From a virus: DNA of 25,884 nt. The notes beneath the pieces were generated by a model that was not told the origin of the DNA, searched no databases, and saw only the letters and a program-made list of their open reading frames with translations. Each line of letters starts with the position of its first letter. Position 1 is the stretch's first letter. This document shows positions 10,539-25,588 of the stretch, in pieces. A program made the position numbers and the translations under genes. The stretch is from IMG/VR virus record IMGVR_UViG_3300014325_000037, positions 1 to 25,884 of that record; one strand, 5' to 3'.

Positions 10539-10919
10539 ATGAAGAAGATTGTTATGGCTGCGCTGCTAGCTTGCAGCCTCAGCGCATGTGCGGGTTTCGG
10601 CAACACGGTGTACTCGGCATCTGCGAAGGCGCAGGGCAGCGCGGACACCCTGTACGTTGCCGCCGAAAAGGCTGGCGAGGTGCTGGTCGCAACGAAGGTC
10701 ATCACGCTCGCGCAGTTCAACGCGGCCGAGACAAAAGCATATGCTGCGCTGCAGGTATTCCGCAGTGCGAGCCTCGCTGTCCGTGCGGCTGCAACCACGG
10801 GCTCCGACACGACGGCGATGCTCGTCGCCGAGGCGGACGCGCTCGCGAAGTTCAACCAGGCGCTCGCTGATTTCCAGAAGTTGGCGCATGTCGCGCCGGC
10901 TGCTGCAACCACGCTATAG
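10539..10919 (+). CDS. Phage lipoprotein of the lysis cassette
   Basis: A 126-residue protein with a typical lipoprotein signal: MKKIVMAALLACSLSACAG, with lipobox LSAC and Cys17 as the likely lipidation site. The mature part is Ala-rich and predicted helical. Being lipidated and next to the endolysin, it might be an outer-membrane spanin or another envelope protein, but o-spanins are usually shorter and often Pro-rich. The start is ATG at 10539, four bases after a very strong GAGGAGGA that overlaps the endolysin stop. A longer upstream frame exists but has no comparable ribosome site. Confidence 0.7.
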   Translation: MKKIVMAALLACSLSACAGFGNTVYSASAKAQGSADTLYVAAEKAGEVLVATKVITLAQFNAAETKAYAALQVFRSASLAVRAAATTGSDTTAMLVAEADALAKFNQALADFQKLAHVAPAAATTL

Positions 10920-14062: not shown

Positions 14063-14101
14063 AGTTGTCTGTCGCCGCATAATGGTGGACAAGGGGGCAT
14101 C
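14063..14101 (+). promoter_or_regulatory. Copy 1 of a 39-base element repeated before two gene starts
   Basis: The element ends with TGGACAAGGGGGCATC (14086-14101), identical to copy 2 at 15065-15080. An AGTTG lies at the same distance upstream in both copies (14063 and 15042), with scattered shared C and CCG bases between. It ends 14 bases before the ATG at 14116, with AAGGAGA between. It could be a phage promoter whose transcripts start at the G run, or an RNA or operator element. It is not a standard sigma-70 promoter, because no -10 box lies 17 bases after the TTG. Confidence 0.5.
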
Positions 14102-14115
14102 AAAGGAGATGTTCC

Positions 14116-15036
14116 ATGTGCGGCAACTGCAATGACCCGTTCCATTTCGAAGACGATCTGGATGACGCTGTAATCGTTCCCATGACCGAGATCGAGCGTG
14201 CTGAGAGCCAACGGCTCGCGCAGTTCGAAGTCGATCGCGCTCGTCCCTCTCACACCGAAGACTGCGGCAACTGTCGCGGCACGGGACGCTTCCGGCTCCG
14301 TAACGGTGCGTCTGGCAGCTGCTTCAAGTGCAACGGCACCGGCAAGCTCGTCTACAAGACGTCAAAAACGCAACGCAATGCTGCTCGCGTGAAGCGCGAA
14401 GCCACTGCCGACCAGAAACGTGTTGATCTGCAAGCAGCTCGCGAAGCATGGATTGCTGCAAACCGCGATGACTTCGCGTGGATGAAGGCGAAGGAGGAAA
14501 CCTTCGAGTTCGCCCGCTCGATGTATGATGCCCTTATGCAATACGGCACGCTCACCCCGCGGCAGCACGAAACCGTCACGCGCTTGCGCCTCGCTGATGC
14601 CGAGCGCGCTGCAGCTCGTCAAGCCGAAGCGATTGCTCGCCAGGCAAATGCACCCGCGATCGACGTTTCCGCGATCGAGACAGCTTTTGCCCACGCAAAG
14701 GGCAAGGGGATCAAAAAGCCGAAAATGAAGCTTGCGGGCTTCAAGTTCAGCGAAGCCCCCGCGCATGGCCGCAATGCCGGCGCCCTGTACGTCGTGCGGG
14801 TCAGCGATGACCAGTACCTCGGCAAGGTGCTTGACGGCAAGTTCACTCGCGTCCGTGAGTGCGACGAAGCGACACAGGCCGAAGTGCTTGCCGTCGCAAG
14901 CGATCCGCACAATGCAGCGATTGCTTACGGTCGCCGCACCGGCAACTGTGCGATCTGCGGGCGCGAGCTCACCAATCATGCGTCGATCGATCTCGGGATC
15001 GGCCCCATCTGCGCCGAGAAATACGGCTGGATGTAA
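14116..15036 (+). CDS. Zinc-finger protein with DnaJ-like and DUF6011-like modules
   Basis: A 306-residue protein with three cysteine clusters. The N-terminus begins MCGNC. Residues 50-75 carry CGNCRGTGRF then CFKCNGTGK, two CxxCxGxG repeats of the DnaJ zinc-finger type (Cys50, 53, 69, 72). The middle (about 85-200) is Ala/Arg/Glu-rich and helical. The C-terminal end (278-306) has CAIC then GIGPICAEKYGW, the pattern of DUF6011, a small zinc-binding domain found in phage proteins. The role is unknown; nucleic-acid or protein binding is plausible. AAGGAGA precedes the ATG by six bases. It lies next to the arm junction and is not obviously structural. Confidence 0.65.
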   Translation: MCGNCNDPFHFEDDLDDAVIVPMTEIERAESQRLAQFEVDRARPSHTEDCGNCRGTGRFRLRNGASGSCFKCNGTGKLVYKTSKTQRNAARVKREATADQKRVDLQAAREAWIAANRDDFAWMKAKEETFEFARSMYDALMQYGTLTPRQHETVTRLRLADAERAAARQAEAIARQANAPAIDVSAIETAFAHAKGKGIKKPKMKLAGFKFSEAPAHGRNAGALYVVRVSDDQYLGKVLDGKFTRVRECDEATQAEVLAVASDPHNAAIAYGRRTGNCAICGRELTNHASIDLGIGPICAEKYGWM

Positions 15037-15041
15037 TCACC

Positions 15042-15080
15042 AGTTGACAAGCACCGATGCCTCCTGGACAAGGGGGCATC
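15042..15080 (+). promoter_or_regulatory. Copy 2 of the 39-base element, with an overlapping hairpin
   Basis: The 16-base core TGGACAAGGGGGCATC (15065-15080) is identical to copy 1. Here it is also the 3' part of a hairpin: GATGCCTCC (15056-15064) can pair with GGGGGCATC (15072-15080) around TGGACAA, with one G-T pair. Copy 1 lacks the 5' arm, so the hairpin is not the shared feature. TTGACA is present at 15044-15049 but no -10 box follows at the right distance. The element ends 17 bases before the ATG at 15098. Confidence 0.5.
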
Positions 15081-15097
15081 GGAACTGGAGACACACG

Positions 15098-15250
15098 ATG
15101 GCACGCAAGTATAACCCGCTCAACTCACGGACGCTGACGAAACCGACGATTAAAAGCGCTGTGAGGGGTGAGCAGCGCCCGCCGCACCCAAGGGTGCCCC
15201 CTCACCTCGCTTGCCCCTGTACGCCTAGCAAGGGCGCTCGTTTCGATTGA
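15098..15250 (+). CDS. Small basic hypothetical protein overlapping the polymerase gene end
   Basis: A 50-residue frame starting at ATG 15098, with GGAG seven bases upstream and the 39-base element just before that. The N-terminal 24 residues (MARKYNPLNSRTLTKPTIKS) look like a real basic protein. The second half is Pro/Arg/Cys-rich and is encoded by the hairpin region at 15161-15205. Its last 26 bases overlap the 3' end of the convergent DNA polymerase gene. It could be a real small protein, or a truncated gene whose 3' part has been replaced by the terminator region. Confidence 0.35.
   Translation: MARKYNPLNSRTLTKPTIKSAVRGEQRPPHPRVPPHLACPCTPSKGARFD
15161..15205 (-). terminator. Nested hairpin at the convergent gene junction
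   Basis: GTGAGGGG (15161-15168) pairs with CCCCTCAC (15198-15205), and inside it GCACCC-AA-GGGTGC (15184-15197) forms a second stem. Read on the minus strand it lies about 20 bases after the DNA polymerase stop and is followed by a TTTTAAT run, as expected of a terminator for the leftward operon. On the plus strand no T run follows. Confidence 0.5.
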
Positions 15251-18671: not shown

Positions 18672-18834
18672 CGGTGCCACCTACGATCCTGAGCGGATTA
18701 TTCCGCCTGACAGGCTGAGTGCGCCCCGGGCAGTTCGGGCCTAGCGCAAGCGCGGCCTCGCGATCGGTGCACAAGCAGTTTTTGCACTGCATCGTGCCAT
18801 GGTTCAAACGAGATGGTCCCCAGTCATGTTGCAT
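18655..18834 (-). CDS. Short Cys-rich protein between dpdA and the clamp gene
   Basis: A 59-residue reading frame fills the 150-base gap between the DpdA-like gene and the clamp. Its ATG overlaps the dpdA stop (TGATG, 18836-18832), and its end overlaps the clamp start by 17-26 bases, the coupling style used throughout this operon. The protein has an N-terminal HDWGPSRLNHGTMQCKNC stretch followed by LCTD and a later NCPG. The His/Trp/Gly-rich start with CxxCxC and a distal Cys suggests a small zinc-binding module like those common in phage proteins. It was found by translating the gap by hand. The role is unknown; small zinc proteins here might accompany DNA-modification enzymes. Confidence 0.6.
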   Translation of the reverse strand: MQHDWGPSRLNHGTMQCKNCLCTDREAALALGPNCPGRTQPVRRNNPLRIVGGTDVKRS

Positions 18835-19784
18835 CAGAATAGCCCCGGTGTTTCTTGCACGTATCGCGTTGCTGGCTCACGTAGATCCACGTAGTGCGGG
18901 AACGCCCAGCAGTTGTATGCCCACCTTGCATAATACAGCTCGCGCAAACGGTCAATGTCCTGACCGTCCCCTAACACGATTTCTTTCCAGATCGGCTCGC
19001 GCATCACGTCGGGCAACGAGTCGTAATGCTGCAAGTGCATCTTGCGGGCCGAGCTCTGTGCAGACACGTTGAGCTGTCGGCCGCTTGTGGGCATGAGCAC
19101 TAGGCCGTTCGCCGCCCACTGCACCCACGTCGAGGAATCAACCGACCACCACGGATACTTGAGCATGAGCTGAAGCGCCGTCAGCGAGAACGCATGAAAC
19201 TTCGTCTTCGGCGTTCCGTCTGGATTGCATGTCCGCTCGAAGACCTGCTTGAACCAAGACTCGAGCGAGAACAGGTCAGAACGGATCAGGCCACCGAGCG
19301 CGATGTACTTATACTTGCTCACGTAGTAGTCGAGGTATTCCCATGGTTCGCCATAGTGGAAACATGGCAGAGGCTCGCACCCCTGCCGTTCCATCTCCTC
19401 CTGGTTTCGCCACGACATTTCGGCCGTCTTCGCTTTCGGGTAGAACTCGCCGCCGGGCCCGCCGATAACGTCGAGCGGTGCAATCATCTTGATGCCTTCG
19501 TCCCTCGCTATCACGTCATCATTCTGGTGAATGAAGTCGCAGTAGTGAGACATGTCGATCGTCGTTCCCAGCGTGAAGGCTGAGAAGGCACCCGAGTCCA
19601 AGAATATCTTAACGCCGTCGCGCCGAATGTGCTCCAGAGCCCGGCCCGACTTGATGTAGTGAAACGATTCCAGGTACCACTTGTTGGACCTGCGCTTCGC
19701 TTGTTCGTCGGGCGTGAGCTTCTGAAACACGGTACCCGTGTAGCTGAAATTGGAAGTATACAACCCTGCATTATACAGCTTCAC
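18834..19784 (-). CDS. dpdA: DpdA-like DNA 7-deazaguanine transglycosylase
   Basis: A 316-residue protein related to tRNA-guanine transglycosylases and to the phage DpdA enzymes that replace guanine in DNA with a 7-deazaguanine. Recognisable features in order are FLDSGAFSAF (61-70, active-site Asp63), APLDVIG (102-108, Asp105), CFHYGEPWEYLDYY (141-154), YIALGGLI (160-167), and HAFSLTALQLMLKYPWWSVDSSTW (197-220), where Asp216 fits the nucleophile Asp of the TIM barrel. The start is GTG at 19784, six bases after GGAGG, and overlaps the end of the GIY-YIG gene by 14 bases. Its stop overlaps the next small gene (TGATG). The base inserted depends on the pathway genes at 23415-25522. The subfamily cannot be assigned by eye. 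Confidence 0.85.
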   Translation of the reverse strand: MKLYNAGLYTSNFSYTGTVFQKLTPDEQAKRRSNKWYLESFHYIKSGRALEHIRRDGVKIFLDSGAFSAFTLGTTIDMSHYCDFIHQNDDVIARDEGIKMIAPLDVIGGPGGEFYPKAKTAEMSWRNQEEMERQGCEPLPCFHYGEPWEYLDYYVSKYKYIALGGLIRSDLFSLESWFKQVFERTCNPDGTPKTKFHAFSLTALQLMLKYPWWSVDSSTWVQWAANGLVLMPTSGRQLNVSAQSSARKMHLQHYDSLPDVMREPIWKEIVLGDGQDIDRLRELYYARWAYNCWAFPHYVDLREPATRYVQETPGLF

Positions 19785-20271
19785 CGCGCGCCTCCGCTTC
19801 CTTGCGACGCCAATAGCGCATCATCGCTTCGCTAGCACGATTTTTCTGTTGTTCCGTTTGCGGTCCGCGAGCTCGGCGCGATGCGCTCATTCTGGCTCGC
19901 GTTTCAGCGCTGATCGTTCGCCCTGTCATAGCGACGCGTATCTTTTCGCGTGCTTCGACCGATAGTGGTTCGCGCGGCGGTACGAGCACTTCGCGTGCTA
20001 TATTGTAGCCGAGCTCGACAGCCTGCAACGTATCGAGATAATACTGCTCGCGCTCATACATCGTTGCTTCATCGCAATGCTCAAGCACCTCGAAGACGAA
20101 CGCTCTTTCGCCGTATTTCACATATGCCGCTTGCAAGTGCTTATTGTGATGGGTGCCGAGCGACAATGAGTAGAAGTGTTGCTCGCAGCGCTCGTGCACC
20201 ACCGCACTCGATCCGACGTAGAATTTGCCGCTAATTGTGTTGCGGATAATATAGACGCCGGACTGCATCAT
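19771..20271 (-). CDS. GIY-YIG homing endonuclease-like protein
   Basis: A 166-residue protein. The N-terminal domain has GVYIIR (5-10) and FYVGSS (17-22) of the GIY-YIG nuclease fold, a catalytic-type Arg nearby (RCEQH), a HHNKHLQ segment, and a Glu in MYEREQYYL typical of this nuclease. The C-terminal part (about 104-133, LSVEAREKIRVAMTGRTISAETRARM) resembles NUMOD3 DNA-binding repeats. Freestanding homing endonucleases of this type are phage selfish elements that cut related genomes and spread by repair. The gene overlaps the methyltransferase stop (ATGA) and the dpdA start, so it is neatly inserted into the operon with no intron visible. Another possibility is a nuclease used against competing phages. 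Confidence 0.85.
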   Translation of the reverse strand: MMQSGVYIIRNTISGKFYVGSSAVVHERCEQHFYSLSLGTHHNKHLQAAYVKYGERAFVFEVLEHCDEATMYEREQYYLDTLQAVELGYNIAREVLVPPREPLSVEAREKIRVAMTGRTISAETRARMSASRRARGPQTEQQKNRASEAMMRYWRRKEAEARGEAV

Positions 20272-20846
20272 TTGGCGGTCAGCTCGTAGATGACGATCCT
20301 TTCATCATGAGACGAAGGATTCGGGTGGTTGAGGCGCAGCCGATAAAAATCAGCATCGACTGTGTAGTCGTGGAATCGCCTCGCCTGCACCTGCCAATCG
20401 AACGACACCAGCGAATGAGTGTCGTCGGTGTCGCGGAAGTACTTCGTCTCGCCGACGCTGTTCGCGTACTTCGAGATCAGGTCGTCATTGACGAACTGGA
20501 TAATCAGCAGCCGCCCGTCGTGGAACGATGCGATATGGCGAAGCAGCCGCAGCACCTCTGCGTCTGTCATGTAGTGCAGGACATACCGCATTACGATAAG
20601 ATCATAGACGCCAACGTGTGTCATGATGTCTGCGACGATATCGGGATACTTTGACCCGTCATAATCGACAGAGACGCTATGCGGGATCCAATGCTTGAGC
20701 AGCCCGTTTGCGCCGCCGTAATCAGCAACGCGCCCCGACGTGTCTACGCCCGTGAGTGCGAGCTCCATGATATCGTGGTACATGAGTCGAGCAGTGGGAT
20801 TGTCCCATGTGCCGAATGCTCCAGCTTGATCTTCTGCGTGTATCAA
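20268..20846 (-). CDS. SAM-dependent methyltransferase
   Basis: A 192-residue class I methyltransferase-like protein. Motif I is VADYGGANGLLKHW (40-53), with an acidic residue at the end of the next strand (SVDYDG), VADIMTHVGVYDLIVMRYVLHYM (71-93) fits motifs III-IV, and GRLLIIQFVNDD follows as the next strand. No NPPY or DPPY is present, so it is not a standard adenine or N4-cytosine DNA methyltransferase. It lies immediately upstream of the homing endonuclease and dpdA, so methylation of a 7-deazaguanine side chain or of DNA/RNA is possible. The start is TTG at 20846 after GGAGG at five bases. Confidence 0.75.
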   Translation of the reverse strand: MIHAEDQAGAFGTWDNPTARLMYHDIMELALTGVDTSGRVADYGGANGLLKHWIPHSVSVDYDGSKYPDIVADIMTHVGVYDLIVMRYVLHYMTDAEVLRLLRHIASFHDGRLLIIQFVNDDLISKYANSVGETKYFRDTDDTHSLVSFDWQVQARRFHDYTVDADFYRLRLNHPNPSSHDERIVIYELTAK

Positions 20847-20884
20847 TTTGTCCTCCGTATAGAAGCGCTATGAGGGCGGTTTAC

Positions 20885-20948
20885 AGGGGCGCCCCTCCCT
20901 TGGGTGCCCACAAGGCGCCCGATCGCGTATAATCCCGGTCAGGGCGCC
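20885..20948. other. Hairpin-rich gap between thyX and the methyltransferase gene
   Basis: The 105-base gap holds several inverted repeats: the palindrome AGGGGCGCCCCT (20885-20896), GGGTGCC / GGCGCCC (20902-20920, one G-T pair) and GGCGCCC (20914-20920) / GGGCGCC (20942-20948) around a TATAAT-containing loop. The stems share bases, so they may be alternative structures. On the minus strand they follow the thyX stop and precede the methyltransferase start, suggesting a terminator or RNA-processing point between two halves of the operon. No convincing promoter for the downstream half was found; only a weak TGTAAA (18 bases) TATACG. Confidence 0.5.
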
Positions 20949-20951
20949 TCG

Positions 20952-21698
20952 CTACGGGCGTTTCACGAGCTCGTCAAACAAGCCCATGAGTCCTGGCAAG
21001 TGAGGCCGCAGCAGATCAATGATCGCATAGGCGTAGATCTGCGCCTCGATTTGGGCATGGCTATGTGCCCGCAACGCGAGGAACTGAAACATGTTGCCGA
21101 GATCGACATTGCCGAGCCAATGCACGTAATGGTTGACGTGCAAGAACATGCGCGCATGCTCAGGTGCAACGCCATCAGCGATTGCCATCGTGTAGTCTTC
21201 ATACCCGTGAGCGCAGGCGAGGTTCAGCTTCTCTTTGAACCAGCGTTGTGTGTGCTCGGGCAGGTTGTCGGCTTGTCCCTGCTTCGCGTTCGGAGCCTTG
21301 CCGCCGACGATCTTTGGAATATACCACTCGGGCGGCAGCGTGATATAACGGCCAGAGGACTCGTTGCGCCGCCAGGTGCGGTGCCGCACGAGTTGACGAT
21401 CCACGAAGATCGGCACCTTGACTTCGAGCCAGACCGAGATCATCTCGAAAGGCGACGTGTGCCGGTTTTGCAGCAGGTAGCGGCACAGCTTCATATCCTG
21501 CTCATACGTGCGCTCGGCGTCCAAGTTGTCGAATGACATCCGAGCAGCGTTCGCGGGGTCAGTGTCGTCGGCGTCGAACTCGCGCCAGGTGATATGGCTC
21601 TCGCCTGGCACCTTGAGGTCGGCTGGTTCATCGAACGCGCGGCGCGTCGGCCCTGCGAGATTGCGGAGGATGACGAAACCGTGGTCAAGTACGTTCAT
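20952..21698 (-). CDS. thyX: Flavin-dependent thymidylate synthase ThyX
   Basis: A 248-residue enzyme that makes dTMP from dUMP with FAD and NADPH. It shows HTSPFE (80-85), the ThyX motif RHRTWRRNESSGRY (105-118) and the C-terminal FLALRAHSHAQIEAQIYA (206-223) with Arg210. The usual motif is RHRxxSxNExSxRY; here the first Ser is Arg110 while the catalytic Ser of RHRx7S (Ser115) is kept. The ATG at 21698 has AAAGGG six bases upstream; an upstream extension would run through the adjacent gene. It overlaps the DUF3310 gene by 14 bases. Together with MazG-like and DUF3310 it belongs to the nucleotide pool part of the operon. Confidence 0.9.
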   Translation of the reverse strand: MNVLDHGFVILRNLAGPTRRAFDEPADLKVPGESHITWREFDADDTDPANAARMSFDNLDAERTYEQDMKLCRYLLQNRHTSPFEMISVWLEVKVPIFVDRQLVRHRTWRRNESSGRYITLPPEWYIPKIVGGKAPNAKQGQADNLPEHTQRWFKEKLNLACAHGYEDYTMAIADGVAPEHARMFLHVNHYVHWLGNVDLGNMFQFLALRAHSHAQIEAQIYAYAIIDLLRPHLPGLMGLFDELVKRP

Positions 21699-22077
21699 GG
21701 CGTGCCCTTTCGGCAATGACGAGATCGAGGATGACGTGGATCTCATCGAGATTGTACCCGCGCCACAGCAGGCGAGCAATCGTCTGCGTGAACTCGGGCT
21801 GGTCGACAATGCGGTCATGGAGGAACGCAGCGGGATCGGCGAGGTCGAAGATCAGCGGCGCGGTGCGCATGGCGATGCCCGCGGCAGCAAGGTTCGCAAA
21901 GAGCTGGCATTCGCTGTCAGCGTACCACGCAGCCTTGCCGAGCTCTACGACGGCTTCATCCTTTCGCGTGAGGCGCCAGCAGTATTTCAAGATCTGAAAC
22001 CCGTTGGCGGTCAATCGCTCGCCGATGTCCGCGCATGCTCGGCCCGCGTAGTGCGCGGGATTGATTGGATCGCTCAT
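21685..22077 (-). CDS. DUF3310-family protein (gp1.7-like)
   Basis: A 130-residue protein with DPINPAHYAGR (3-13), the hallmark opening of DUF3310 (SaV-like) proteins, followed by QILKYCWRLTRKDEAVVELGKAAWYAD (28-54), the conserved helix with the YxxR and KAxWY pattern. The family includes T7 gp1.7, described as a nucleotide kinase, though the activity is not visible in the sequence here. The C-terminal half (FDLADPAAFLHDRIV, FTQTIARLLWRGYNLDEI) is extra. It overlaps both neighbours (ATGA upstream, 14 bases downstream), placing it between MazG-like and ThyX as a nucleotide-pool gene. Confidence 0.75.
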   Translation of the reverse strand: MSDPINPAHYAGRACADIGERLTANGFQILKYCWRLTRKDEAVVELGKAAWYADSECQLFANLAAAGIAMRTAPLIFDLADPAAFLHDRIVDQPEFTQTIARLLWRGYNLDEIHVILDLVIAERARHERT

Positions 22078-22427
22078 TGTTTGTCTCGGCGCTCAGCCGC
22101 CTCTTCATCCGTATAGCCTGCACGGTAGCGGACATCGAGCTTCGCCATATTGCCGAGCAGCGTTTCCTCGCGCGTGATGCCGAGACGTTGCCGCAGCCCC
22201 TCCATGAAGAACTCGAGGTCGCCAAGCTCCTCGATCACGTTCGCCCGATCGAGCGGCTTCTGATAAACAGCCCAGCGCTTGATGGCGTCAAGGCATTCGC
22301 CGCCCTCGCCTGCGATCCCTGTCGCCATATGCCATGCGTCGGCCTGCTCGGGTGTCATGCGAGCGATGATATCCTCGCCAGGCTTCTTCTTGCTCGCGAC
22401 GAATGCCGCGTAATCTGCAACGCTCAT
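22074..22427 (-). CDS. MazG-like nucleotide pyrophosphohydrolase
   Basis: A 117-residue all-alpha NTP pyrophosphohydrolase. The metal-binding pattern ExxE...ExxD is present as Glu41, Glu44, Glu67 and Asp70 in GIAGEGGECLDAIKRW and VIEELGDLEFFMEGL. Such enzymes hydrolyse (d)NTPs to the monophosphate and PPi; in phages with modified DNA they can remove canonical or unwanted dNTPs or provide dNMP substrates. The ATG is preceded by GAGGG and overlaps the stop of the upstream gene. Its own end overlaps the DUF3310 start (ATGA). Confidence 0.85.
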   Translation of the reverse strand: MSVADYAAFVASKKKPGEDIIARMTPEQADAWHMATGIAGEGGECLDAIKRWAVYQKPLDRANVIEELGDLEFFMEGLRQRLGITREETLLGNMAKLDVRYRAGYTDEEAAERRDKQ

Positions 22428-23404
22428 AGAATACCCTCACGCTTGACGCTGATAGCGTCGTTTATGCCCCATTTGGGCGGAAAGAACGGATCGGGCATCG
22501 GTGCCCCCACCGCGCGGTTATATTTCTGCTTGATGCGCTCGCGACCGGCTTTGCCCTTGATCTCGGGATGAGCGACGCGTGAGTACTTGCTGATCTCGCA
22601 GAACAGGTTTTGGCAATCGATCGGCTGGAGCCGTCGACCGAACAACCCCGGGAACTCGATGCCGAGTCGTGCAAACTCGTAGTCTTGATGCTGCGTAATC
22701 AGCATAACGACGTCTTCCGGCTTTCGCCGTCCGATATCGCTAAAGCACTTGCTGATCCCATCGAGCGCGCCGGGGCCGCACACCACGAACGATGCTTCGT
22801 CATGATCGATCAGCGACGAGTAGTTTAGATCGATGGTATATTGGAAAGCCAAAAAGGGTCCAAGGCCTGAGTAAGCTAGAAGCAGATCATACACCTGCTT
22901 GAGCCCGCGCGCCTGCTGCATCCGAGCAGGCAGCTCGTCTGCAACCATTTTGTATAGTAGCCGAAGGTGGTTGGCATGTTTACGCCCGCCGCCGTAGCTT
23001 GGAATATCCGGCATGATATATGCAGCAGAGTAGACGGGTGTCTTGCCAGCGAAGATGCCGTCGAGTATCGTAACCGCCCCGTCCCAGTTAAAGCCGTTGA
23101 ACTCGATAGGGCCTAAGCCGAGCTCGAGAAGCTCCCACGTAGTCACATTGTTGAATAGCTTGAAAAGCATTGTCCGGAAGAACACGTCAACAGGAGCTTG
23201 GCTGCGATGATCGGCATATTGCACTTCGCGGATCAAGTATTGGCTCACGCGATCGGCTGCGCGATACGGGTTCGTAAACCTGTACTCGCGCAGTATCGGA
23301 TCATCTGTCCATGGGCCTACGGTGCTCGCAAGCCGACGCAAGTACGTAGCTTGTCGCTCGGCGGCAAAGCGCCAGTAGGTATCGAGACAGACGGTCGGCG
23401 TCAT
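22424..23404 (-). CDS. Protein resembling the 5-hmdU DNA kinase helical domain (aGPT-Pplase2)
   Basis: A 326-residue protein with the signature of the group named alpha-glutamyl/putrescinyl thymine pyrophosphorylase type 2, seen as the helical domain of 5-hydroxymethyl-dU DNA kinases: TYWRFAAERQATYLRR...GPWTDDPILREYRFTNPYRAADRVSQY (9-56), LLAYSGLGPFLAFQYTIDL (175-193) like a helix-hairpin-helix, WVVCGPGALDGI-type segment (VVCGPGALDGISK, 207-219), and DCQNLFCEISKYSRV (263-277). No P-loop is visible; GKT at 120-122 lacks the GxxxxGK context. Known relatives act in thymine hypermodification, so its role beside guanine modification genes is unclear; DNA glycosylase-like binding is possible. The ATG at 23404 follows GAGGA; an upstream extension lacks support. 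Confidence 0.65.
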   Translation of the reverse strand: MTPTVCLDTYWRFAAERQATYLRRLASTVGPWTDDPILREYRFTNPYRAADRVSQYLIREVQYADHRSQAPVDVFFRTMLFKLFNNVTTWELLELGLGPIEFNGFNWDGAVTILDGIFAGKTPVYSAAYIMPDIPSYGGGRKHANHLRLLYKMVADELPARMQQARGLKQVYDLLLAYSGLGPFLAFQYTIDLNYSSLIDHDEASFVVCGPGALDGISKCFSDIGRRKPEDVVMLITQHQDYEFARLGIEFPGLFGRRLQPIDCQNLFCEISKYSRVAHPEIKGKAGRERIKQKYNRAVGAPMPDPFFPPKWGINDAISVKREGIL

Positions 23405-23414
23405 CGTGCTATCC

Positions 23415-24302
23415 TCAATTGGCCAGCTGCAAGAATTCTTGGCGAGGCAGGCCCTCGAATAGCACGCCTCTGAGCGAGCTTGTGACCGTGTGGTGCCCTT
23501 GCTGGCATACGCCGCGCGATTCCATGCAGAGATGGCGCGCCTTGACAATGACACCGACGCCTAGGGGCTTCAAGTGTTCCATGATCGCATCAGCGACTTG
23601 ACCCGTCAGACGTTCCTGCACCTGCAAACGCCGCGCGTAGCAATCGACCAGACGATTGATCTTCGACAGCCCGACGATCTTACCGTCTGGAATATAGCCG
23701 ACAGTCGCCGTGCCAAAGAACGGGGCCATGTGATGCTCGCAGTGCGTGTAGAACGGGATGTCTTTGACAAGCACCATCTCGTTGACGCCTTCGGCACCGT
23801 CCTCGAAGACTTTGAGGATTTCTTCTGGCTTCTCGTCATAGCCTTTGCACCAGAACTTCCACGCGGCCGCGACCCGAGCTGGCGTCTCCTCGAGACCGCC
23901 ACGCGTTGGATCGTCACCGATATACTGGATCAAGCGCGTAATGTGGTCGGCGATCCCTGTCTTCGCGTCACCTTCCCACGGCCAGACAACCCAGTCGTTT
24001 GCGTCGCCCCATGACCGCTTATCGATCAGCGCGAACACGGGCTTCCCGTAGTGCGCAAACTTCGCTGCCGTCGCTCCCGTGTCGATCAGATCGTCCATGA
24101 TGAAGTTAGCTTGCGCTGGATCATCAACGAGCATGAGCGAGAGCGGCGTGCCGAACAGCGCGAGCGTTGCAGGTACGCCCCCTCGCGGAATAGCATACAC
24201 CGACAACGTCTGATATGCGGTTGGTCCGAAATACTCGCGGATAGCATCAGCGCAGTTGAGCGCAAGCGTATTGAGCTGGCTATATGAGACGTTGTGGATC
24301 AT
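23415..24302 (-). CDS. folE: Phosphoribosyltransferase-GTP cyclohydrolase I fusion
   Basis: A 295-residue two-domain protein. Residues 1-108 resemble a type I phosphoribosyltransferase: AIPRGGVPATLALFG (37-51) and FIMDDLIDTGATA (67-79), the PRPP-binding acidic loop. Residues 118-295 are GTP cyclohydrolase I: LEETPARVAAAW (137-148), FYTHCEHHMAPFFG (184-197) with zinc ligands Cys188 and His191, GLSKINRLVD (211-220), QVQERLTGQ (227-235) and ARHLCMESRGV (255-265) with Cys259. FolE converts GTP to dihydroneopterin triphosphate, the first step to 7-deazaguanine. The fusion partner may supply or salvage nucleotides. It overlaps the queD stop (ATGA); the ribosome site is weak, so translation is probably coupled. 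Confidence 0.85.
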   Translation of the reverse strand: MIHNVSYSQLNTLALNCADAIREYFGPTAYQTLSVYAIPRGGVPATLALFGTPLSLMLVDDPAQANFIMDDLIDTGATAAKFAHYGKPVFALIDKRSWGDANDWVVWPWEGDAKTGIADHITRLIQYIGDDPTRGGLEETPARVAAAWKFWCKGYDEKPEEILKVFEDGAEGVNEMVLVKDIPFYTHCEHHMAPFFGTATVGYIPDGKIVGLSKINRLVDCYARRLQVQERLTGQVADAIMEHLKPLGVGVIVKARHLCMESRGVCQQGHHTVTSSLRGVLFEGLPRQEFLQLAN

Positions 24303-24772
24303 ACCGAAAACTTGCCCCCTTCGTAGATTGCAGCATTGCCGCCGTGCTCGCGCACCATGACCGATTTAATGTGGAGCCCGCGCGCGTCGATCGAGTGCAG
24401 ATAGTTCGCATGAAGCCACTCGTCTACGACGCCATAGGCGTGCTGCGCGAAGGCTTCGCATCCGACAGTCGGCAGCACCAGAATGTCGCGGAAGCCCCAC
24501 TTTGCATAGAGCGCCTGGAAGTCGGGCAAAGCGGGATCGTTGGCTGCGAGCACGGTGCGGTGATCGAACTCGTCTGCAAGCCGTTCCTTGATCGGCTTGA
24601 GCCCGCCGAAGTCGAGGACCCAGTTGTTATTGTCGAGGATCATTGCACCGAAGCGCAGCCCGAACGCGAGCGGGTAGCCATGCGGATCCTTGCAGTGGCT
24701 TTCCGCCCCGGGTTGACGGAAGCAGGTGCTCCAGCCAAGCGTGTGGTCGTATAACTTGTCTATGTAGAACAT
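24299..24772 (-). CDS. queD: 6-carboxytetrahydropterin synthase-like protein (QueD)
   Basis: A 157-residue protein of the QueD/PTPS family, which turns dihydroneopterin triphosphate into 6-carboxytetrahydropterin. Alignable features are CKDPHGY (27-33), equivalent to CxxxHGH, WVLDFGGLK (51-59), ADEFDHRTVL (66-75, catalytic Asp70-His71) and VMVREHGGNAAIYEG (138-152, Glu142). By eye, only one of the three usual zinc His ligands (His31) is kept: the first is replaced in WSTCFRQP (14-21) and the third by Tyr33. Cys17, His26 or Tyr33 may compensate. The ATG at 24772 follows GAAGGG at six bases; the longer GTG start is less likely. It lies between queE and the FolE fusion and overlaps the latter by four bases. 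Confidence 0.75.
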   Translation of the reverse strand: MFYIDKLYDHTLGWSTCFRQPGAESHCKDPHGYPLAFGLRFGAMILDNNNWVLDFGGLKPIKERLADEFDHRTVLAANDPALPDFQALYAKWGFRDILVLPTVGCEAFAQHAYGVVDEWLHANYLHSIDARGLHIKSVMVREHGGNAAIYEGGKFSV

Positions 24773-24826
24773 TCGCGTCCCTTCGATTACGCCGAGCACA
24801 ATAGCCGCGACGTGTTTCCAGGCGGG

Positions 24827-25522
24827 TTACTCGAGGCCGAGTACCTTGTGGATTTGGATCTGCAGCGTGTGCCCGTGCGCCATGGCGCTGTCGATCGTGG
24901 CACGGGTGTTTGCCTGGTTGAGCATCGGGTCGAGCTCATCCATGGGCTGCACGTAAACAGGGGCGCCCGGGCGGGGCCTCGCGACGACCGGCGACGCGGG
25001 GTGGCCGAGTGCGATTGTGGGCAAGCCATCGTCGGCGATCTCGCCGTCCCGCAAAACATACTTGAAGGCCATTGCCCGCTTCATGATCTCGTCACTGATG
25101 CGGCTCGTCTTCGGCGAGCATACGATCGAGAATTTCTGGAAGTGGTCGAGCGCTTCGATCCCCGGCGGTGCGAGCACGCCATTGGTTTCGACCTGCACCC
25201 GCCAGCCCGCGGTGATGAGCGCGTAGATCGCTGGGAACACGTTTTGCCGGAACGGCTCGCCGCCCGTCAGCACGATCAGCGCGCCAATCGGCCACTCGAG
25301 CACGCTAACACCGTTGACGAGCTCGGCGGGCGTCATGTTGTGACGCGTTTCGGTATATTCGGTATCGCAGCCCGGGCAACGAAGGTTGCAGCCGTATAGC
25401 CGAATAAACAGGGCACGCTCGCCGCAGAACGGCCCCTCGCCTTGGATCGTTTTGAAGATCGAGTGTACGTCGATTGATCCGTCCAAGCGATAGTCGGCGG
25501 CGATGGGTTTCTGCTCGTTCAT
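24827..25522 (-). CDS. queE: 7-carboxy-7-deazaguanine synthase (QueE)
   Basis: A 231-residue radical SAM enzyme that makes CDG from 6-carboxytetrahydropterin. It has FKTIQGEGPFCGERALFIRL (23-42), typical of QueE, CNLRCPGC (45-52; the CX3CX2C cluster Cys45, Cys49, Cys52), LTGGEP (85-90), VETNG (111-115) and VQPMDE (191-196). A full-length QueE, first gene of the leftward operon, directly after its promoter. The ATG at 25522 has GGAGGG just upstream. The 54-base gap to queD contains no visible structure. The presence of queE with queD and folE argues that the phage makes its own 7-deazaguanine precursor. Confidence 0.9.
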   Translation of the reverse strand: MNEQKPIAADYRLDGSIDVHSIFKTIQGEGPFCGERALFIRLYGCNLRCPGCDTEYTETRHNMTPAELVNGVSVLEWPIGALIVLTGGEPFRQNVFPAIYALITAGWRVQVETNGVLAPPGIEALDHFQKFSIVCSPKTSRISDEIMKRAMAFKYVLRDGEIADDGLPTIALGHPASPVVARPRPGAPVYVQPMDELDPMLNQANTRATIDSAMAHGHTLQIQIHKVLGLE

Positions 25523-25541
25523 ATGCCCTCCATAAAGGGCG

Positions 25542-25571
25542 ATCATAGGGGGCAACCTTAGTTTTTTGCAA
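25542..25571 (-). promoter_or_regulatory. Sigma-70-type promoter of the leftward operon
   Basis: On the minus strand TTGCAA (25571-25566, four of six) is followed after 18 bases by TATGAT (25547-25542, five of six). It lies in an AT-rich stretch unlike the rest of the window, between a terminator upstream and the queE ATG at 25522 downstream. Transcription would start near 25535, leaving a leader of about a dozen bases with GGAGGG. Confidence 0.6.
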
Positions 25572-25588
25572 ACGAAAAATAAGGGCAT

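Follow-up and report, generated by a model that had tools for sequence, protein, structure and literature searches.

A 39-base element that occurs twice in the viral DNA analyzed here (25,884 nt; hereafter, the window) is very probably a promoter standing before two phage genes, as judged from sequence comparison. Each copy is likely to be a sigma-70-family promoter in its own right, copy 1 serving a DUF6011 gene and copy 2 the next open reading frame (ORF), and both would be read by the host vegetative RNA polymerase. They would belong to a class reused by alphaproteobacterial phages, chiefly for the terminal-repeat genes of Bertelyvirus Caulobacter phages. The case for a promoter rests on what the copies share in sequence, their fixed spacing, their location before genes, and their recurrence; the host sigma factor as reader, the exact start, and early timing are what we infer. 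No description of this promoter class was found in the openly licensed literature. Its pattern provides a testable sequence signature for the class in alphaproteobacterial phages, and it allows start sites to be predicted for dozens of genes of Caulobacter phages that are named and in culture.

Two copies of a split element

The element is composed of AGTTG, 18 variable bases that are unrelated between the copies, and the 16-mer TGGACAAGGGGGCATC, which is identical in both (Table 1). Both copies lie where the earlier note had placed them, each shortly before an ATG, with 14 nt between the end of copy 1 and the ATG at 14116 and 17 nt between the end of copy 2 and the ATG at 15098. The equal spacing of the boxes that it described also holds, although its figure of 21 bases does not: 18 variable bases separate the boxes, and a count of 21 results when one measures from the T of TTG to where the 16-mer begins.

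A 16-nt direct repeat is no rarity by itself: of 300 second-order Markov windows, 56 contained one. None of the 300 contained the split 5+16 repeat with its spacing fixed, which rules out a chance repeat. Further copies, for which the earlier note had suggested a search of the phage genome, were found in other phages, and none more in the window (the entire record for this virus) with up to three mismatches allowed.

The copies are located at the end of a tail gene cluster, with tape-measure, baseplate, and tail-fiber genes upstream on the plus strand and DNA polymerase, clamp, thymidylate synthase, and queuosine-type genes downstream on the minus strand. The ORF following copy 2 has only its first residues (MxRKxNPL) in common with a 130-amino-acid (aa) gene of the nearest relative (L009, contig G001), and its sequence suggests that it is perhaps a shortened form or remnant of that gene, beside the end of the DNA polymerase gene. 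Short inverted repeats, recognized by eye at 15140 to 15250 between the two convergent gene sets, possibly form a two-way terminator. Farther along, the minus strand from 18834 to 25588 encodes a queuosine-type set (tRNA-ribosyltransferase-like, QueD, QueE, and GTP cyclohydrolase proteins), a thymidylate synthase, and a GIY-YIG-type homing endonuclease, for which a part in DNA base modification is possible.

Table 1. Features at the two copies of the element (window coordinates)
Feature	Position	Strand	Remarks
Copy 1, predicted promoter of the DUF6011 gene	14063..14101	+	24.5 bits with the RB23-trained matrix, rank 2 in the window
Copy 1, AGTTG	14063..14067	+	
Copy 1, predicted -35 box TTGTCT	14065..14070	+	17 bp from the -10 box
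Copy 1, TGGACAAGGGGGCATC	14086..14101	+	
Copy 1, predicted -10 box GACAAG	14088..14093	+	GACAAR near invariant at RB23 sites
Copy 1, putative discriminator and start region GGGGCATC	14094..14101	+	Conserved as GGNNCATC at RB23 sites; start probably at 14099 or 14100
Possible small hairpin GGGGCATC/GATGTTCC whose loop holds the Shine-Dalgarno (copy 1)	14094..14115	+	Predicted fold; similar GGTTCATC/GATGAACC in L009
Shine-Dalgarno of the DUF6011 gene	14103..14109	+	
DUF6011/phrog_4046 protein, 306 aa	14116..15036	+	Downstream of copy 1
Copy 2, predicted promoter of the next ORF	15042..15080	+	33.2 bits, best in the window; resembles RB23 10540-10596
Copy 2, AGTTG	15042..15046	+	
Copy 2, predicted -35 box TTGACA	15044..15049	+	From sequence and spacing
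Predicted hairpin CCGATGCCTCCT/AGGGGGCATCGG over spacer, -10 box, and start of copy 2	15054..15082	+	-23.9 kcal/mol, z -6.6; spacer-shuffle z -5.7
Copy 2, TGGACAAGGGGGCATC	15065..15080	+	
Copy 2, predicted -10 box GACAAG	15067..15072	+	From sequence and spacing
Copy 2, putative discriminator and start region GGGGCATC	15073..15080	+	From the RB23-trained matrix; start probably at 15078 or 15079
Shine-Dalgarno of the ORF downstream of copy 2	15086..15091	+	Partly pairs with 15041-15046 in the local fold of read-through RNA
50-aa ORF	15098..15250	+	Downstream of copy 2; only the N terminus is common to it and the 130-aa L009 gene at this position

Probable promoter architecture and reader

In the proposed reading, AGTTG would contain the -35 box (TTGTCT or TTGACA), and the shared 16-mer would comprise the -10 box GACAAG, a GC-rich discriminator GGGGC, and a start region CATC. 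The spacer is exactly 17 bp in both copies, and the -10 box lies 22 nt (copy 1) and 25 nt (copy 2) from the start codon. Transcripts would begin ~5 to 6 nt past the -10 box, at or beside the A of CATC, giving a leader of ~17 to 20 nt with the ribosome site included. The two-box promoter with a short, ribosome site-containing leader that the earlier note had proposed is supported. Its start at the G run is less probable, as that run occupies the expected place of a GC-rich discriminator; transcription more likely begins at the conserved CATC that follows.

The objection that the spacing does not fit host sigma-70 falls away, since 17 bp is the commonest spacer of alphaproteobacterial sigma-A promoters (PMC7566282). 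In Zymomonas and Caulobacter, these promoters follow TTGNNN-17-TANNNN, lack a conserved T at -7, and have a discriminator of ~6 bp (PMC7566282), and the Caulobacter RpoD consensus is TTGaCgS and GCtANAWC (PMC8144410). By our reading, the GCGACAAR of Caulobacter phage RB23 (L341) fits GCtANAWC at six of eight positions. It is because of this resemblance that a host-polymerase promoter is the best reading of the element. Compared with TANNNN, GACAAG matches with the A at position 2 and has G, not T, at position 1, which makes it a weak -10 box by the published consensus. Because the -10 box has no T at -7, which a strict E. coli-type promoter scan demands, such a scan misses the element, and an E. 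coli-based search misses the class as a whole. A further sigma-70-type promoter candidate, TTGACA-17-GATAAC, is found on the plus strand at 708 to 736, 31 nt before a tape-measure-like gene at 768; it has the -35 box and the spacing without the GACAAGGGGGCATC block.

Recurrence in relatives and in Caulobacter phages

The split element recurs at 17-bp spacing in other viral sequences, among them L004, where it precedes an unrelated gene; L036, where it precedes two genes; and the L066 contig, with three occurrences. Another gene of contig G001 and its L004 ortholog both carry it, and a pattern scan of viral contigs retrieved additional members that are followed closely by a ribosome site and a start codon. 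The complete phage of the window would be expected to have more copies, including one ahead of its counterpart of the MTFKAYSNR gene of G001. Exact matches to the 16-mer in other viral contigs, L004 aside, are apparently due to chance. Before the same two genes as in the window, relatives carry either the element or a GATAAC/GATACG form of it; L009 presents TTGCAT-17-GATAAC and TTGTCT-17-GATACG there, showing that the second box can vary toward an ordinary -10. Among DUF6011 genes at greater distance, the hexamer that follows TTGNNN after 17 bp again resembles a -10 box: GATAAT in L008, TAGAAG in Caulobacter BL64, TAAACC in Erythrobacter XM05, and TATCGA in Sphingobium Lacusarx. When copies in hosts were sought with TTGNC-N17-GGACAAGGGGGCAT, in 84,980 species represented by a single genome each, the scan yielded six scattered matches, approximately the chance level, none of them titled as an alphaproteobacterium.

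Among named phages, no match was found in the first searches with the whole region or in DNA similarity searches with copy 1 and with an L066 element. The search with copy 2 retrieved RB23 (80.7% identity, E value of 7e-5) at 10540 to 10596, just before gp019. The pattern TTGACN, 17 to 18 bp, GACAAR GGNNCATC stands before many terminal-repeat genes of RB23 and CcrSC. In 26.5 kb of RB23, 17 sites share one strand and the opposite strand has none; most stand immediately upstream of a gene. In its strict 17-bp form, the pattern is present eight times in the whole RB23 record, always near its two ends, and the reversed-pattern control gave none. In the CcrSC terminal repeat, a matrix trained on RB23 only identified 17 sites; every one is on the coding strand, and 16 lie 24 to 38 nt before an annotated coding sequence. 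This is a held-out but not a distant test, CcrSC being a relative of RB23. The same matrix also marked two sites within part of the sequence of Brevundimonas phage Gurke. The records of RB23, CcrSC, and CcrBL9 contain no promoter annotation of the repeated elements. In the predicted promoters of the RB23 terminal repeat, GCAT after the -35 box and ATGC before the -10 box make up a small dyad that is fixed, and GCAAGAAAGCTG is conserved upstream. A 27-nt match to the -10 and start part of an RB23 element (92.6%, E value of 0.05) occurs in Mycobacterium phages such as Goku and Eureka (~69.2 to 69.5 kb); it is found in 14 similar records and may be due to chance.

Applied to the window, the RB23-only matrix ranked copy 2 first and copy 1 second, with the next best site at 8.6 bits. 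Among 1,000 second-order Markov windows, the best score reached 24.5 bits twice and the second best never did. The distances from the -10 box to the start codon in the window match those of the RB23 and CcrSC class. Terminal repeats enter the cell first in T5, and by analogy the location of the class in RB23 and CcrSC would point to early expression.

Predicted hairpins around the probable promoter

A tentative addition to the promoter reading, which we consider possible but not the likelier case, is that the promoter lies inside a hairpin formed only in read-through RNA, where it would hide the ribosome site or mark the RNA end. RNA initiated at the element itself would lack the 5' arm and hence be translated, much as for T4 gene e, whose promoter is embedded in the 5' arm side of a hairpin that keeps the ribosome site covered when RNA reads through (PMC3014915). 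The full hairpin could arise in read-through RNA alone, because the promoter's own transcripts would start after the 5' arm. Complementarity of the spacer to the -10 block was detected in copy 2, both L036 sites, L066-1 to -3, and L009-2 (z of -3.5 to -5.8 against shuffled spacers). The five L036 and L066 stems present three double compensatory changes and 95% pairing, in an alignment placed by hand with loops masked. In predicted folds, the ribosome site is paired in the long RNA and free in the short one, clearly so in L008, L036-1, and L004 and partly in copy 2.

Against this layer, no significant spacer hairpin was found by the shuffled-spacer test in copy 1, L004, or any Caulobacter site. 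As the box spacing is kept at these sites, the hairpin is not the sole conserved feature. Hiding of the ribosome site was not seen in the predicted fold of copy 1 and is weak over 59 orthologs, giving little support to a general rule that DUF6011 genes hide theirs. Silencing of read-through RNA by the hairpin is perhaps a role, a plausible extra layer only. A protein operator with a fixed dyad is unlikely, because the arm sequences covary and the gaps differ; the varying loop sizes fit RNA better. The copies were also considered as intrinsic terminators and rejected, as no T-run follows them.

Less likely readings: a dedicated factor or a duplication

The GGNNCATC block after the -10 box is more conserved than sigma-70 alone would require. 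A wider interpretation, which we regard as rather unlikely, takes GACAARGGNNCATC as a distinct block common to unrelated alphaproteobacterial phages, serving a dedicated host or phage factor or a special response of the G-rich discriminator; it would mark the first transcription wave and, in one phage group, be wrapped in hairpins that silence read-through RNA. Less probable still is a special promoter at which GACAARGGNNCATC and TTGAC are recognized together, whether by a polymerase that the phage encodes or modifies, by an alternative sigma factor of the host, or by a host activator. The near-invariant block past the -10 box in unrelated phages, the G at the first -10 position, and the confinement of the strict pattern to the terminal repeats in RB23 are consistent with such a promoter. 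However, TTGAC at 17 to 18 bp is the geometry of a vegetative -35 box, and relatives have the second box swapped for GATAAC or GATACG. The earlier note had also envisaged a phage polymerase or sigma-like factor. No sigma region 2 or 4 was found in the window or its relatives, including a 59.6-kb contig. The single-subunit phage RNA polymerase profile (PF00940) matched no record, nor did its control, and the records are mostly fragments. A local duplication of recent date, or a conserved context for ribosome binding, with no promoter role in either case, is very improbable. In its favor, the two 16-mers are identical, and AAGGGGG could base-pair with the anti-Shine-Dalgarno. Against it, a separate Shine-Dalgarno follows downstream for each gene, the boxes keep their spacing with 18 unrelated bases between them, and the split element also precedes unrelated genes in other phages.

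Comparison with known promoters

The host-polymerase promoter proposed here can be set against three known systems. In the leaders of T4 genes e, soc, 49, and I-TevI, the 5' portion of a hairpin encloses a promoter, and the ribosome site is hidden in read-through RNA (PMC3014915). Copy 2 and L008 resemble this arrangement. In contrast, the T4 promoters are late and silencing was measured for gene e, whereas the hairpins described here are predicted folds alone and do not occur at every copy. The element differs from alphaproteobacterial RpoD and sigma-A promoters by the G in first position of the -10 box and by the GGNNCATC block, which lies outside the consensus; it shares with them the TTG of the -35 box, the 17-bp spacer, and an A-rich -10 box without T at -7 (PMC7566282, PMC8144410). 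The Bertelyvirus elements are located in terminal repeats, and their spacers carry GCAT..ATGC, with GCAAGAAAGCTG upstream, whereas the window copies have neither and lie by a late gene cluster, known from a 25.9-kb fragment. The likeness to these Caulobacter phages (RB23, CcrSC, and CcrBL9) consists of TTGACN, a spacer of 17 to 18 bp, and GACAARGGNNCATC, placed 24 to 28 nt before a gene.
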